Source: Mycobacteriales bacterium (GTDB taxonomy: Bacteria > Actinomycetota > Actinomycetes > Mycobacteriales > SCTD01). From it: a stretch of 52,546 nucleotides of DNA. The translations under genes were made by a program, and so were the position numbers. The stretch's first letter is position 1; each line of letters opens with the position of its first letter. Location of the stretch: assembly GCA_040902655.1 (NCBI GenBank), contig JBBDWV010000045.1, forward strand, positions 37,369 to 89,914. The letters run 5' to 3'. Shown here piece after piece: positions 40,895-51,588 of this stretch. The notes under the pieces are model-generated. The model saw only the letters and a list, made by a program, of their open reading frames with translations. It had not been told where the DNA came from and made no database searches.

Positions 40895-43800
40895 GTGGGG
40901 ATGAAGGACGTGCTGCTCGGCTGGCCGGTCTACCGGCAGCTGACGGGCGAGGACCCGCTGGGGCGCGGGGCCGCCGCCCGGTCCGGCCGCACCGCCGGTG
41001 TGCAGCCGCGGACCGCGACGGCGGACCGCGTCGTGCAGAGCGTCTGTCCCTACTGCGCCGTCGGCTGCGGTCAGAAGGTCTTCGTGAAGGACGAGAAGGT
41101 CGTCCAGATCGAGGGCGACCCGGACTCACCGGTCAGCCGCGGCCGGCTCTGCCCGAAAGGCTCGGCCAGCGAGCAACTCGTCAACAGCCCCAGCCGCGTC
41201 ACCACGGTGAAGTACCGGGCGCCCTACGCCACCGAGTTCGTCGACATCCCGCTCCAGCAGGCCATGGAGATGGTCGCCGACCGCGTGCAGGCGACCCGGG
41301 ACAGCACCTGGCAGGACGCGGATGACCAGGGGCACACGCTGCGGCGGACCCTCGGCTTCGCCTCACTCGGCGGGGCGACCCTCGACAACGAGGAGAACTA
41401 CCTCATCAAGAAGCTGTTCACGGCTCTGGGTGCGATCCAGGTCGAGAACCAGGCGCGTATTTGACACAGCGCCACCGTCCCCAGTCTGGGGGCCTCGTTC
41501 GGCCGTGGCGGCGCCACGAACTTCCAGCAGGACCTGCAGCACAGCGACTGCATCGTCATCCAGGGCTCCAACATGGCCGAGTGCCACCCGGTCGGGTTCC
41601 AGTGGGTGATGGAGGCGAAGGCGCGCGGTGCCAATATCATCCACATCGATCCGCGATTCACCCGCACGTCTGCGCTCGCGGACACACACGTCCCGCTGAG
41701 AGCCGGCAGCGACATCGCCTTCCTCGGCGGGATCATCAACTACATCCTGGGCGAGGAGAAGTTCTTCCGGGACTACGTCGTCTCCTACACCAACGCCGCG
41801 AGTCTGGTCTCCGAGGACTTCCAGGACGTCGACGAGCTCGACGGCCTGTTCTCCGGCTACGACCCGGAGACCGGGACCTACGACACCGCGAGCTGGGGGT
41901 ACGAGGGGCACGAGGTCAACGCGGCGGCAGGCAACGCCCGCGCACCGATGACCGGCTCCGAGGACGACCAGAGCGGCCAGCAGAGCAGCGCCAGCAGCGA
42001 GAGCGACGAGCAGTCCGAGAAGAGCAGCGCCAGCGGCCACGAGCTGGGCGGCCGCGGGGCCAACCTGGAGCACAGCCGGGTCCGGCGCGACGAGACGCTG
42101 CAGCACCCCAGGACGGTCTTCCAGGTGCTCAAGCGGCACTACGCCCGCTACACGCCGGAGCTGGTGGAGCAGGTGTGCGGGGTCCCGCAGGAGCTGTTCC
42201 TGCAGGTCTGCGAGGCGGTGACCGCCAACAGCGGTCGCGACCGCACCACCGCCTGGGTCTACTCCGTCGGCTGGACGCACCACTCGGTGGGCGTGCAGTA
42301 CATCCGCGGTTCGGCGATCATCCAGCTGCTGCTCGGCAACATGGGCCGGCCCGGCGGCGGCATCCTCGCCCTGCGCGGCCATGCCAGTATCCAGGGCTCG
42401 ACCGACATCCCGACGCTGTTCAACATCCTGCCCGGCTACCTGCCGATGCCCAAAGCCGGACGGCAGGACAGGTACGCCCACTACCTGCGTAACATCGCCA
42501 CCCCCGGCCAGAAGGGGTTCTGGTCGCAGGCCGACGCCTACACCGCCAGCCTGCTCAAGTCCTGGTGGGGAGACGCGGCCACGCCGCAGAACGACTTCTG
42601 CTTCGACTACCTGCCACGGCTGACCGGCGACCACGGCACCTACCAGACCGTCTTCGACATGCACGACGGCCGGGTCGAGGGCTACTTCCTCGTCGGCCAG
42701 AACCCTGCCGTCGGATCCGCCCACGGCAAGCTCCAGCGGCTGGCCCTGGCCAAGCTGAAGTGGCTGGTGGTGCGCGACCTGCAGCTGATCGAGTCCGCGA
42801 CGTTCTGGAAGGACGGGCCGGAGATCGCGTCGGGGGAGTTGACGACCGAGCAGATCGGCACCGAGGTGTTCTTCTTCCCCGCGGCGACGCACGTGGAGAA
42901 GGAGGGCAGCTTCACCCAGACGCAGCGGATGCTGCAGTGGCGGCACAAGGCGGTGGAGCCGCCGGGCGATGCCCGCAGCGAGCTGCATTTCTACTACCAC
43001 CTGGGCAGGCTGCTCCGGCAGCGTTACGCCGGCTCCACGCAGGACAAGGACCGCCCGCTGCTGGACCTGACCTGGGACTACCCGACCCACGGGGTGACGC
43101 AGGATCCGGACGCCGACGCGGTGCTGCAGGAGATCAACGGTCGTTACCTGACCGGCGACAAGGCCGGGCAGCACCTGCCGGGCTTCACGGAGATGAAGGC
43201 CGACGGGTCGACCTCGGGCGGCTGCTGGATCTACTGCGGCGTGTATGCCGACGGCGTGAACCAGGCCGCCCGCCGCCGGCCGGGACGGGAGCAGAGCTGG
43301 GTGGCGCCCGAGTGGGGCTGGGCCTGGCCGATGAACCGCCGCACGCTCTACAACCGGGCCTCCGCCGACCCGGAGGGGCGGCCGTGGAGCGAGCGCAAGG
43401 CCTACGTCTGGTGGGACGAGCAGGCCCGGCGGTGGACCGGCCACGACGTCCCGGACTTCCAGCTGACCAAGCCCCCGGACCACCGCCCCGAGCCGGGCGC
43501 GAGCGGTCCGGACGGCATCGCGGGCGATGACCCGTTCATCATGCAGGCCGACGGCAAGGGCTGGCTCTACGCGCCGGTCGGGCTGCTCGACGGGCCGCTG
43601 CCGGCGCACTACGAGCCGGCCGAGTCACCGGTCCGCAACCCGCTCTACACCCAGCAGGCCAGCCCCACCCGGCAGGTGTTCAAGCGGCAGGACAATCTGC
43701 AGAACCCGTCCGGCCACGAGCCCGGCGGCGAGGTCTTCCCGTACGTCTTCACCACCTACCGGCTGACCGAGCACCACACGGCCGGTGGCATGAGCAGATG

Positions 43801-44245
43801 GCTGCCGTACCTGTCCGAGCTGCAGCCGGAGATGTTCTGCGAGGTCTCGCCCGAGCTGGCCCGCGAGCGTGGGCTGGAGCACCTGGGCTACGCGACGATC
43901 GTCACGGCGCGCGCCGCCATCGAGGCGCGCGTGCTGGTCACCGACCGGGTCGTGCCGCTGACGGTGGGCGGCCACACGATTCACCAGATCGGGCTGCCCT
44001 ACCACTGGGGCGTCGGCGGCGACGCCGTCGTCAGCGGCGACTCCGCGAACGACCTGTTCGGCCTGGCCCTCGACCCGAACGTGCACATCCAGGAGTCCAA
44101 GGCGGCCTCCTGCGACATCCGCCCGGGACGACGTCCCACGGGGCCGGCGCTGGTGCGTTTCGTCGAGGACTACGTCACCCGTGCCGGGATCACCACGGAC
44201 ACGGGCAACACGCGGCTGACGCCGCACGAGGGGGCGCAGCAGTGA
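40895..44245 (+). CDS. fdhA: Formate dehydrogenase catalytic subunit, selenocysteine-containing
   Basis: Oxidises formate to CO2 at a Mo- or W-bis-pterin centre. Read through the UGA at codon 190 it has 1116 residues. The N-terminal [4Fe-4S] site is Cys51, Cys54, Cys58 and Cys86 (CPYCAVGC and RLCPKG). The active site is ENQARI-Sec-HSATV, the typical sequence of FDH-N/O-type enzymes. The molybdopterin domains follow, with ending motifs GLPYHWG and ESKAASCDIRPG. GTG 40895 lies 6 bases after AGGAGG. No twin-arginine signal is present at the N-terminus. Residues about 338-396 form a Ser/Asp/Glu-rich insertion compared with the E. coli enzymes as I remember them. Without selenocysteine the protein would end after 189 residues. 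Confidence 0.95.
41462..41464 (+). other. In-frame UGA selenocysteine codon of the formate dehydrogenase
   Basis: TGA stands exactly where FDH-N/O proteins carry Sec or Cys, between ENQARI and HSATVPSLGASFGRGG, and the frame continues without interruption for another 926 codons. The presence of a tRNA-Sec gene 10 kb downstream supports recoding rather than a nonsense mutation. Confidence 0.93.
41470..41510 (+). promoter_or_regulatory. Candidate SECIS element after the UGA codon
   Basis: An outer 6-bp stem (41470-41475 with 41505-41510) and an apical stem (41477-41482 with 41488-41493, including four C-G pairs) enclose the loop AGTCT. The loop begins 18 bases after the UGA. Bacterial SECIS hairpins have a similar distance and a G and U exposed in a short apical loop (AGGUCU in the E. 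coli fdhF element, as I recall). A large bulge on the 3' side is unusual. Confidence 0.6.
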
Positions 44246-47868: not shown

Positions 47869-47894
47869 GGCTGTTCGGTCCGCTCCTCAGCCGG
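47861..47894. terminator. Bidirectional hairpin containing both stop codons (MFS subunit and AOR)
   Basis: CCGGCTGAGG (47861-47870) is perfectly repeated in inverted form (47885-47894) around a 14-base loop. The TGA of the small MFS subunit (47866-47868) and the TGA of the convergent AOR gene (complement at 47887-47889) occupy matching positions in the two arms. Confidence 0.6.
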
Positions 47895-49659
47895 CAGGCG
47901 GTCTTCCGTGCCCGTCCAGGCCGCGGGCGCTCCAGTAGGCGTCGACCATCGCACGCAGCCGCGCGGGCGTCAGCGTCGCCGTGCGACCCGAGGTCAGCTG
48001 CAGGTCCTGTGACAGGAAGCGGTCGGGGAGCCAGTCGTCCTCGGGCTGCCAGCCCTCGCGCAGGTTGAACGCGCGCTTGAGCAGCACGATCCGCTGGGCG
48101 GTGGCGCGAAGTTCCGCCTCGTCGACGTCCCAGCCGGTCACCGACGCCAGCAGGGCCGCCCACTCGGCGAACGGCTCCTCGAACACGCCCCGCAGGAACT
48201 TGCAGAGGATCAGCGAGTCCATCACGGCGCTGCGGTCCTCGGCCTCGATCGCGCCGCGCACGTGCGCCTCGCCGCCGGAGAGCCGGTCGAGGTCGCCCGA
48301 CAGGTCGGCTTCGTACGCGCCGGATCGGTTGTGGTCCGCGCCGCGCGCGTTCACGGCCATCCCGAGGGCCATCGCCTGCATCGTCCGGGGCTCGTAGCCC
48401 GGCAGCTCGAGGCCCTTGACGTGCGCCGCGAACGCCGCCGATCCCTGCCCCACCACCTGTGCCGCGGCACGGCTGCCGAGCGAAAGCAGCGGACCCAGTC
48501 CCTGTCCGGAGCCGATCTCGTCGAGGGCGCGCAGCAGCGCGGCGCCGTCGCCGAACCGGAGCCAGGGTGCGTCGATCAGCCCGCGCTCCGCGCACTCCAT
48601 CGCCCAGGCGATCGTGCCGCCGGCCGAGATGGTGTCGATGCCGAGGTCGTCGCAGCGGGCGCTGGCCGCGAGCACGTCGTCGGGGTCGGACACGCCGCAC
48701 ATCGGCCCGAGCGCGCTGACGTTCTGGTACTCCATCCGCACGGTGCGGCCGCCCTTGCCGCGGTAGATGTGCTCGCAGCCGATGGCGCACGAGGCGCACG
48801 AGCTCTTGGTCACCGACCGCGCCTGCGCGAGCTCCTCCGCCGCGAGCTGCGGCGCGCCGTCGAAGCTCGCCTGCTGGAAGTTGCGCGTCGGCAGGGTGTT
48901 CAGGGCGTTGAAGGCCAGTACGTTGGCAAGAGTGCCCACCTCCCGGTACTTCTGGGTCGCACGGCCGAGGGACTTCTCGCGCAGGTCCCGGGCGGCGGCC
49001 AGCACGGCGGCCGGGTCGGCCGGCGCCACCTTCGTGGTCGCATGAACAGCGAGCGCCTTGACGTTCTTGGCCCCCATCACGGCGCCGAGGCCGCCCCGGC
49101 CGGCGTGCCGCCCGTCGTGGGAGATGGTGGCGTAGCGGACGCCGCGCTCGCCGGCGCTGCCGATGGACGCGACCTGCCAGCCGCGTCCGAGTTGCTCGCG
49201 AACCGCCGCCTCCGCTTCAGCCGCCGACCGGCCCCATTGTGCGCGGGCATCGAGCAGCCGCACCTGGCCGCCGTCGACGACGACCGTGACCGGCGCCGAC
49301 CCGGCCCCGACCAGGATGATCGCGTCATGGCCGGTGAGCTTGCCGGCGATCGCGAAGTGGCTGCTGGCCAGGGCGTCGGTGAGCATGCCGGTCAGCGGTG
49401 ACTTGGCGACCACGGCGAACTTCGCGCTCGTGGTCAGTGGGGTGCCGACCAGGGGGGAGAAGACGAAGGCCAGCGGCGCCTCCGGGGCCATGGGGTCGAC
49501 GCCCGGGGGGGCGAGCTCGAGCAGCAGCCAGGCGCCGAGGCCGGCGCCGCCGAGGTGGTCGCGCAGCACCTGTTCGGGCAGCGGCAGGACCGACGTCGAC
49601 CCGTCGCCGACGTCGACGACGAGGGCGCGACCGAAGTAGCCGCCCGGCGTGTCAGCCAC
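47887..49659 (-). CDS. Aldehyde ferredoxin oxidoreductase family protein (tungsten-type)
   Basis: 590 residues of the AOR family, enzymes that oxidise aldehydes to acids with a bis-pterin tungsten (rarely molybdenum) cofactor and one [4Fe-4S] cluster. Cluster ligands are Cys288, Cys291 and Cys295 (CASCAIGC) and Cys486 (DSLILCKF). The N-terminal pterin-binding part shows GGYFGRALVVDV, HLGGAGLGAW and GRGGLGAVMGAKNVKALAV; the second pterin region has ARGADHNRSGAY. Start GTG 49659 lies inside the end of the mobA-like gene. Its ferredoxin partner is not encoded next to it. Substrate unknown. Confidence 0.93.
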   Translation of the reverse strand: MADTPGGYFGRALVVDVGDGSTSVLPLPEQVLRDHLGGAGLGAWLLLELAPPGVDPMAPEAPLAFVFSPLVGTPLTTSAKFAVVAKSPLTGMLTDALASSHFAIAGKLTGHDAIILVGAGSAPVTVVVDGGQVRLLDARAQWGRSAAEAEAAVREQLGRGWQVASIGSAGERGVRYATISHDGRHAGRGGLGAVMGAKNVKALAVHATTKVAPADPAAVLAAARDLREKSLGRATQKYREVGTLANVLAFNALNTLPTRNFQQASFDGAPQLAAEELAQARSVTKSSCASCAIGCEHIYRGKGGRTVRMEYQNVSALGPMCGVSDPDDVLAASARCDDLGIDTISAGGTIAWAMECAERGLIDAPWLRFGDGAALLRALDEIGSGQGLGPLLSLGSRAAAQVVGQGSAAFAAHVKGLELPGYEPRTMQAMALGMAVNARGADHNRSGAYEADLSGDLDRLSGGEAHVRGAIEAEDRSAVMDSLILCKFLRGVFEEPFAEWAALLASVTGWDVDEAELRATAQRIVLLKRAFNLREGWQPEDDWLPDRFLSQDLQLTSGRTATLTPARLRAMVDAYWSARGLDGHGRPPAG

Positions 49660-50494
49660 CGGCGTCGGCCGACAGGAAGGTCACGACGTCACCCTGCACC
49701 AGCGGCGTCTCGACGTCGCGGACCACCTGGTCGCCGTCGACGGCCGCCAGCAGGTGGCGGTCGAGCACGAGCCCGACGGCCTGGGCGGCGGCGCCCAGGG
49801 TGGCGGCGCGCACCGTCGTCGTACCCGTGCCGCCGGCCGCGGCCAGCACCCCGATCCGCTGGACCACCACCTCCGGGGCGGGTCGGGCGCGCGCCTGCGC
49901 GTACGCCGTCCGGTCGTTGACACCGGTGACGGAGGCCAGGTCGGGGTCGCCGGCCCGCAGTCGGGCGTCCTCCAGCAGGACGGCGTCGTCCAGGACCCGC
50001 ACGGCGGCGTGCTCGAGCAGGAACGCCGGCCGGGCCCGGTCCTGCGCGAGCAGGTCCAGCGCGGCCTGGGCGAGGGTGGTGCGGTAGGCCGCGGCCAGCG
50101 GCTGGCGGAAGCCGTGGACGACGGGCAGCGCGATGTCGGCGGAGTCGAGGGCGCCGGTGACGCGGCGCACGAACGCGGGATGCAGGAACGGCAGGTCGGT
50201 CGAGCAGACGAAGGCGGCCTCCGCCTGGCCGGCGAGCGCGCCGAGGCCGGCGGCGAGACCCTGCAACGGCCCGCGTCCCTGCTCGGCGTCGTCGATCACC
50301 TCGACGGACGGGGGGATCGGCGGCAGCTGCTGGCCGGCCGCCCGCACCACCAGCACGGGACCGTCGACGCCACGCGCCAGCACACCGACCACGCGGCGCA
50401 GCAGGGTCGAGCCGTGCCACTCGAGACCGGCCTTGGAGCTGCCCATACGCGAGGAGCGACCCCCCGCCAGGACGACCGCGCCGACCACTGGCAT
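49652..50494 (-). CDS. mobA: MobA-like nucleotidyltransferase fused to a MoaD/ThiS-like domain
   Basis: 280 residues. The first 200 are MobA-like (molybdenum cofactor guanylyltransferase): nucleotide loop VVLAGGRSSRMGSSKAGL (7-24), CSTDLPFL with the metal-binding aspartate (97-104), FRQPLAAAYR (129-138) and the end motif VTGVND (189-194). Residues 208-280 look like a complete ubiquitin-like MoaD/ThiS domain with DGDQVVRDVETPLVQGDVV and the terminal SADAGG. A di-glycine end is needed for sulfur transfer in molybdopterin synthesis. It is the first gene of an operon with AOR. The ATG at 50494 is supported by a TAGGCT box seven bases upstream. Confidence 0.85.
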   Translation of the reverse strand: MPVVGAVVLAGGRSSRMGSSKAGLEWHGSTLLRRVVGVLARGVDGPVLVVRAAGQQLPPIPPSVEVIDDAEQGRGPLQGLAAGLGALAGQAEAAFVCSTDLPFLHPAFVRRVTGALDSADIALPVVHGFRQPLAAAYRTTLAQAALDLLAQDRARPAFLLEHAAVRVLDDAVLLEDARLRAGDPDLASVTGVNDRTAYAQARARPAPEVVVQRIGVLAAAGGTGTTTVRAATLGAAAQAVGLVLDRHLLAAVDGDQVVRDVETPLVQGDVVTFLSADAGG

Positions 50495-50507: not shown

Positions 50508-50559
50508 CGTCCGGTGCTACCTGATGCAATGGCCGCCACCGACAACGAAGGAGCCTTCC

Positions 50560-51378: not shown

Positions 51379-51471
51379 GGAGGCGTACGCGTTCCTGGTG
51401 GGCGCCCCGGTCTTCAAAACCGGTGAGGGTCGGTATCCGGTCCTGGTGGGTTCGATTCCCATCCGCCTCCG
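51379..51471 (+). tRNA. selC: tRNA-Sec (anticodon TCA)
   Basis: 93 bases, without encoded CCA. The anticodon loop CTTCAAA carries TCA, complementary to UGA, on a CCGGT/ACCGG stem. Features specific for selenocysteine tRNA are present. The D stem is six base pairs with a 5-base loop. The variable arm is long (8 bp with loop TAT, including two G-T pairs). The acceptor stem GGAGGCGT faces CCGCCTCC and so could be 8 bp, but the eighth pair is T-C. The T arm is GTGGG-TTCGATT-CCCAT and the discriminator base is G. selA, selB and selD are not in the window. Confidence 0.95.
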
Positions 51472-51588
51472 CTCTGCCTGCTGACCTGCGGCAGCGGGGC
51501 TACGAGGACCGCTCGCCGCGGAGGTGCTCGCAGCGAGGTGGGTCCGCGAAACCTCGAGTGCGCCGAGGCAGGCGCGTCGCCGGTCCGG

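Follow-up and report, generated by a model that had tools for sequence, protein, structure and literature searches.

A MobA–MoaD fusion protein of Actinomycetota and the tie between its Gly-Gly end and a neighbouring aldehyde:ferredoxin oxidoreductase gene

We describe a protein in which a MobA guanylyltransferase domain is followed by a MoaD/ThiS beta-grasp domain with a free Gly-Gly, an arrangement confirmed for a gene in the window, that is, in the whole 52,546-nucleotide stretch of Mycobacteriales DNA analysed (Table 1). Comparison of sequences across loci ties conservation of the Gly-Gly to a neighbouring aldehyde:ferredoxin oxidoreductase (AOR) gene and would thereby link the tail to that enzyme. 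The best reading, which we hold to be probable, is that a general MobA carries a MoaD-type sulfur carrier dedicated to AOR.

The fusion gene and its surroundings

The initial annotation had placed here a MobA–MoaD fusion with a free di-glycine, in an operon with AOR. The open reading frame lies where it was reported, and both domains are confirmed. Its translation ends in ...VVTFLSADAGG*, and there is a possible alternative upstream start, a TTG at 50545. The operon stands as well, with the AOR gene overlapping the end of the fusion by 8 nt and its GTG start lying inside GGTGGCTGA. The AOR carries CxxCxxxC and DDLGID/DSLILC motifs. A chance origin of the fusion frame is ruled out by the 80 homologous loci retrieved from public genomes. 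The fusion occurs widely among Actinomycetota and is kept in many of their orders, and within the window's genus its Gly-Gly is invariant.

Table 1. Coordinates of the fusion gene, its parts and its neighbours in the window
Feature	Position	Strand	Basis or detail
MobA–MoaD fusion CDS	49652..50494	−	280 aa + stop; relatives' alignment
MobA domain, residues 1–204	49883..50494	−	LAGGRSSRMG, K21, TDLP (D100), GVN (N193)
MoaD/ThiS-like beta-grasp tail, residues 209–280 (approx.)	49655..49870	−	profile + predicted fold
C-terminal Gly-Gly codons (GGT GGC)	49655..49660	−	sequence
Aldehyde:ferredoxin oxidoreductase (AOR)	47887..49659	−	PF01314 6.8e-101, PF02730 3.2e-59; GTG start
Selenocysteine-type formate dehydrogenase alpha subunit	40895..44245	+	NCBIfam formate_DH_Act above cut-off for 41573–44242
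tRNA-Sec	51379..51472	+	ARAGORN

Pfam NTP_transf_3 matches residues 6–156 of the fusion (E 5e-31). A PDB profile search with the head finds MobA as the nearest solved structures, and the best Foldseek matches of the domain are the MobA structures 3ngw and 1h4d. Residues of the LAGG-x-S-x-RMG, Lys, DxP and NVN motifs are invariant or nearly so among 62 relatives. The window protein misses the NCBIfam MobA equivalog cut-off (72.6 bits vs 151.85), a cut-off that the model exceeds in just 1 of 14 control genomes. By profile, then, the head is a divergent MobA, its equivalog status not proven and GMP transfer its predicted activity.

In a search with the entire protein, Pfam ThiS matches the tail with an E-value of 0.051; searched by itself, the tail reaches 0.0039, still under the curated cut-off (18.2 bits of a gathering score of 22.5). 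Among relatives, 30 of 31 tails match ThiS (E up to 1; best 1e-6). A profile built from the tails, run against the PDB, retrieves E. coli MoaD and aligns its Gly-Gly with that of the tails. The AlphaFold2 model of the tail (pLDDT 84.8; 92.3 for the full-length model) is a beta-grasp, and MoaD, the protein with which the initial annotation had proposed to compare it, is its top Foldseek match (1fm0_D, at a modest E-value of 2e-3). VIA Z scores are about 9–10 against MoaD, a MoaD-related protein and SAMP1 (9.4 for the last). Though the single-sequence searches are weak, family profile, predicted fold and gene context agree in indicating a MoaD-type tail. A random or degenerate extension is excluded by conservation, profile and fold. 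A tail of another fold, or a separate moaD in combination with an unconserved Gly-Gly in the fusion, would have spoken against the annotation; the tail is modelled as a beta-grasp, and the separate MoaD-like protein that does exist in the genome (C1:28484, ending PPFAGG) is found together with a conserved Gly-Gly in the fusion. CysO-like and ThiS-like genes, recognised by their neighbours, are also present, as are MoeZ (MoeB-rhodanese) and a single MoaE.

The gene for the formate dehydrogenase alpha subunit has an in-frame TGA at 41462–41464, seen by read-through of the frames. Like that gene, an MFS carrier lies upstream on the plus strand; it scores above the cut-off of the NCBI L-lactate transporter model. 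An SDR gene and tRNA-Sec lie on the other side of the fusion/AOR pair; one window holds both the selenocysteine-type enzyme and tRNA-Sec. The usual order in other actinobacteria is mobA-moaD, aor, NAD-type formate dehydrogenase (FdhA with a NuoG-like N-terminus, plus a NuoEF-like subunit) and moeA. TupA/TupB-like genes occur near AOR in several relatives' loci and point to tungsten; a search of the window's genome for a TupA-like gene, run without a positive control, found none. At L200 and L202, TupA/TupB-like tungstate transporter genes adjoin an AOR with a standalone MoaD.

The Gly-Gly end with and without AOR

The locus set consisted of the 80 public-genome loci, the genomes of the window's relatives and 395 genomes of its class, the last sample being drawn without regard to Gly-Gly or AOR. 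Counts are of distinct genes with a known stop, and a locus entered the AOR-less class only if 2.5 kb or more of sequence followed the gene. All 70 distinct loci that have AOR directly downstream keep the Gly-Gly terminus. It is gone in 19 of 23 AOR-less loci (Fisher 3e-16, a value inflated by relatedness). In the class sample alone, Gly-Gly is kept in 8/8 cases with adjacent AOR and in 0/10 without, an outcome expected once in 43,758 under random assignment.

The end is lost in several ways: by truncation (L122, L093), by substitution (GD in L087, RG in L120, SG in L131), by extension (L107, L135, L137) or with the whole tail (G005, G207, G123). A genome-wide search found no AOR in the genomes of L093, L107, L120, L122, L131, L135, L137 and L138. 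The genome of L087 does contain AOR, beside its other copy of the fusion. That is, Pseudonocardia alaniniphila has two copies, L092 with AOR, ending AGG, and L087 without, ending AGD. AOR-less cases in isolate or single-contig genomes comprise Pseudonocardia eucalypti, Trebonia kvetii, Parafrankia colletiae, G210 and G239, so genome incompleteness is not the general cause of AOR absence. Two of the four exceptions, L061 and L076, keep Gly-Gly and have AOR remnants directly after the fusion. The other two, L077 and L129, speak against the reading proposed below: a free Gly-Gly is kept, yet AOR was not found in the genome.

Some of these loci have further features. The remnants, at about 10905–11278 in L061 and about 8062–8193 in L076, apparently reflect recent AOR loss. 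In a genome of the window's own genus (G005; L042, 2645–3719), a tailless MobA of 203 aa has selD directly after it and no AOR was found; selD comes after AOR in L040 and L041. At L137 (348–1898), the MobA-MoaD-like protein continues into a methyltransferase-like domain, named by eye, to a length of 522 aa, an extension that buries the former Gly-Gly site; AOR was not found in that genome.

In a tree computed from the MobA core alone, five independent pairs on well-supported (starred) branches differ in Gly-Gly, and AOR differs in the same way in each, never in the opposite one. By themselves they give a sign test p of 0.0625. Since five pairs cannot reach p 0.05, our argument draws as well on how varied the losses are and on genomes in which the parts are split. 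G127 and G149 each have a complete standalone carrier (78 aa in G127), with the ending ADAGG, directly upstream of AOR; in G181, a carrier with the same ending and position has its start cut by the contig end, so that standalone and fused forms are both compatible with it. In all three genomes the fusion occupies its own separate locus and is without Gly-Gly, ending NVGV or NVPR. In G217, too, AOR is preceded by an ADAGG-ending carrier that the contig end truncates. Altogether, an ADAGG-type carrier is directly upstream of 12/12 close AORs of the class sample: 8 are fused beyond doubt, 3 have the carrier beside AOR and the fusion elsewhere, and in the remaining one the contig stops too early to tell. 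Without AOR the tail as a whole also changes faster than the core: the median tail/core dN ratio is 2.15 without AOR vs 1.12 with it, in pairs that are not fully independent.

Roles of the two halves and rival explanations

The MobA motifs are intact both with and without AOR. AOR-less genomes retain the MobA half, several of them with a formate dehydrogenase alongside. The best match to a MobA profile is the fusion or its tailless form in 21/21 genomes tested, and the fusion is the sole MobA-type gene found in the window's genome. Because the half persists without AOR, is the best MobA match throughout and stands alone here, it is most likely general, presumably serving all bis-MGD enzymes and not dedicated to AOR. 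The formate dehydrogenase and the NasC-like reductase encoded in this genome are enzymes that we take, by family, to be of the bis-MGD type, and the former is a likely client of the MobA half. A MobA-like gene on C52 was considered as a second MobA and is probably not one; it has an XdhC-like neighbour, and nicotine-blue-oxidoreductase/MocA-type models score best on it, all below their respective cut-offs. The remaining NTP_transf_3 matches in the genome resemble GlmU, sugar nucleotidyltransferases, IspD and CofC (named by eye).

We propose that the head is the genome's MobA, which, to judge from family, motifs and persistence, would add GMP to Mo/W-molybdopterin whether AOR is present or not, providing bis-MGD for enzymes such as formate dehydrogenase and the NasC-like reductase. 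The tail would act as a MoaD-type sulfur carrier whose free Gly-Gly may be adenylated by MoeZ and then converted to a thiocarboxylate; together with MoaE, its putative partner, the thiocarboxylated tail would form the pterin's dithiolene. The importance of the carrier would be specific to the AOR next door, for which it probably secures a delivery of pterin under coupled expression, and in several relatives with adjacent tungstate transporters the product would be a tungsten pterin. Sulfur transfer by the tail is something we infer. Several points count against this reading: the weak MoaD match of the single sequence, a signature, SADAGG, that is unlike the PPVTGG found in E. coli MoaD, and possible redundancy of a second carrier, given another MoaD-like protein and only one MoaE. 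It is tempting, if rather speculative, to see in the fusion a branch-point device: the tail would feed fresh pterin to MobA, where bis-MPT would be assembled and leave either nucleotide-free, for AOR, or GMP-bearing, for formate dehydrogenase, so that Gly-Gly would be kept only with a nucleotide-free client. We consider this elaboration unlikely.

The initial annotation had gone further and suggested a cofactor factory dedicated in both halves to one W- or Mo-enzyme. Part of that proposal stands, as the genes are adjacent and overlapping and the sulfur carrier is linked to AOR through a Gly-Gly that is kept with it and mostly lost without it. It does not hold for the whole protein: AOR-less genomes keep MobA with intact motifs, several beside formate dehydrogenase, the window's genome offers no other MobA-type gene, and YdhV of E. 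coli, an AOR-family protein, contains bis-MPT and failed to accept the MobA product bis-MGD (PMC9103625). Dedication of both halves is thus highly improbable. A more serious competitor, to which we give appreciable though lesser weight than to the general MobA with an AOR-dedicated carrier, is that the fusion has no mechanistic meaning: a neighbouring mobA and an AOR-linked moaD in a formate dehydrogenase/AOR cluster would have fused for co-expression, the tail acting as any MoaD would. The two are compatible. Related genomes with a standalone AOR-linked MoaD, the AOR-linked MoaD genes known elsewhere (PMC1779556) and the ease with which the tail is lost while MobA is retained all suit it, and retention of the fusion across many actinobacterial orders, and on 8/12 close AORs in the class sample, speaks against it without implying that a covalent link is needed.

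The tail might instead be a ubiquitin-like modifier or regulator, its Gly-Gly conjugated to or docked on AOR or MobA so as to control pterin guanylylation. SAMP1 structures are among its best fold matches, the Ubls of Thermococcus kodakarensis double as sulfur carriers and protein modifiers (PMC11323500), and SAMP1, which is linked to MPT synthase in Haloferax, inhibits that enzyme when conjugated (PMC4443979). Against this, the carrier adjoining AOR in G127 and G149 is standalone, so that MobA need not be controlled in cis, and the setting in which AOR-linked MoaD is known speaks rather for cofactor synthesis; we think a modifier role quite unlikely. Hardly any credence is left for the idea that Gly-Gly is conserved merely as a by-product of an overlap between its codons and the start of AOR, as the overlapping start in the window could suggest. 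By estimate, about 51 of the 70 AOR starts lie clear of the fusion, some by more than 100 nt, and Gly-Gly is encoded by 12 different codon pairs among the 70 loci. These two facts refute the overlap as the cause and place the conservation at the protein level; the standalone carrier keeps Gly-Gly too.

Significance and comparison with known systems

Iyer, Burroughs and Aravind noted MoaD beside AOR in 2006 and proposed that it serves the tungsten cofactor of AOR (PMC1779556). The repeated co-loss of di-glycine and AOR, with the remaining protein kept, amounts to a natural mutagenesis experiment that supports their conjecture, and culturable actinobacteria (Pseudonocardia, Nonomuraea, Kribbella) offer a ready genetic test. 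It also raises the question of why a GMP-adding enzyme should be joined to a carrier serving AOR, whose family has members holding a nucleotide-free cofactor. In the open literature searched we found no description of a MobA–MoaD fusion or of the co-loss of Gly-Gly and AOR.

Known AOR-linked MoaD genes, such as aorD/aorE (AorD/AorE) of Aromatoleum (PMC6365974) and tk1065 of Thermococcus kodakarensis (PMC11323500), likewise place a MoaD-like carrier directly adjacent to AOR. They are described as standalone, or as C-terminal on AOR in Azoarcus, whereas here, in Actinomycetota, MobA bears the carrier as a C-terminal domain, and the carrier's Gly-Gly is kept or lost with AOR. With MobA itself (E. 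coli 1e5k, A. fulgidus 3ngw) the window protein has in common the fold, the nucleotide-binding motif and the DxP and NVN motifs; it differs in its extra linker and MoaD tail and in falling under the NCBIfam MobA cut-offs. The tail resembles MoaD, the small subunit of MPT synthase (E. coli 1fm0_D), in its predicted beta-grasp fold and free C-terminal Gly-Gly, and differs in the divergent end mentioned above and in an N-terminus fused to MobA.

Other fusions also join domains of cofactor synthesis, namely MobA-MobB, MoaC-MobA and MobB-MoeA, known to us as NCBIfam model names, and MoaD-MoaE and MoaD-MoeB (PMC11237513). A combination of MobA with MoaD is not among them. MoaD lacks a free C-terminus in the MoaD-MoaE fusion, where cleavage is presumed to be necessary (PMC11237513), whereas the end of the window's tail is free.
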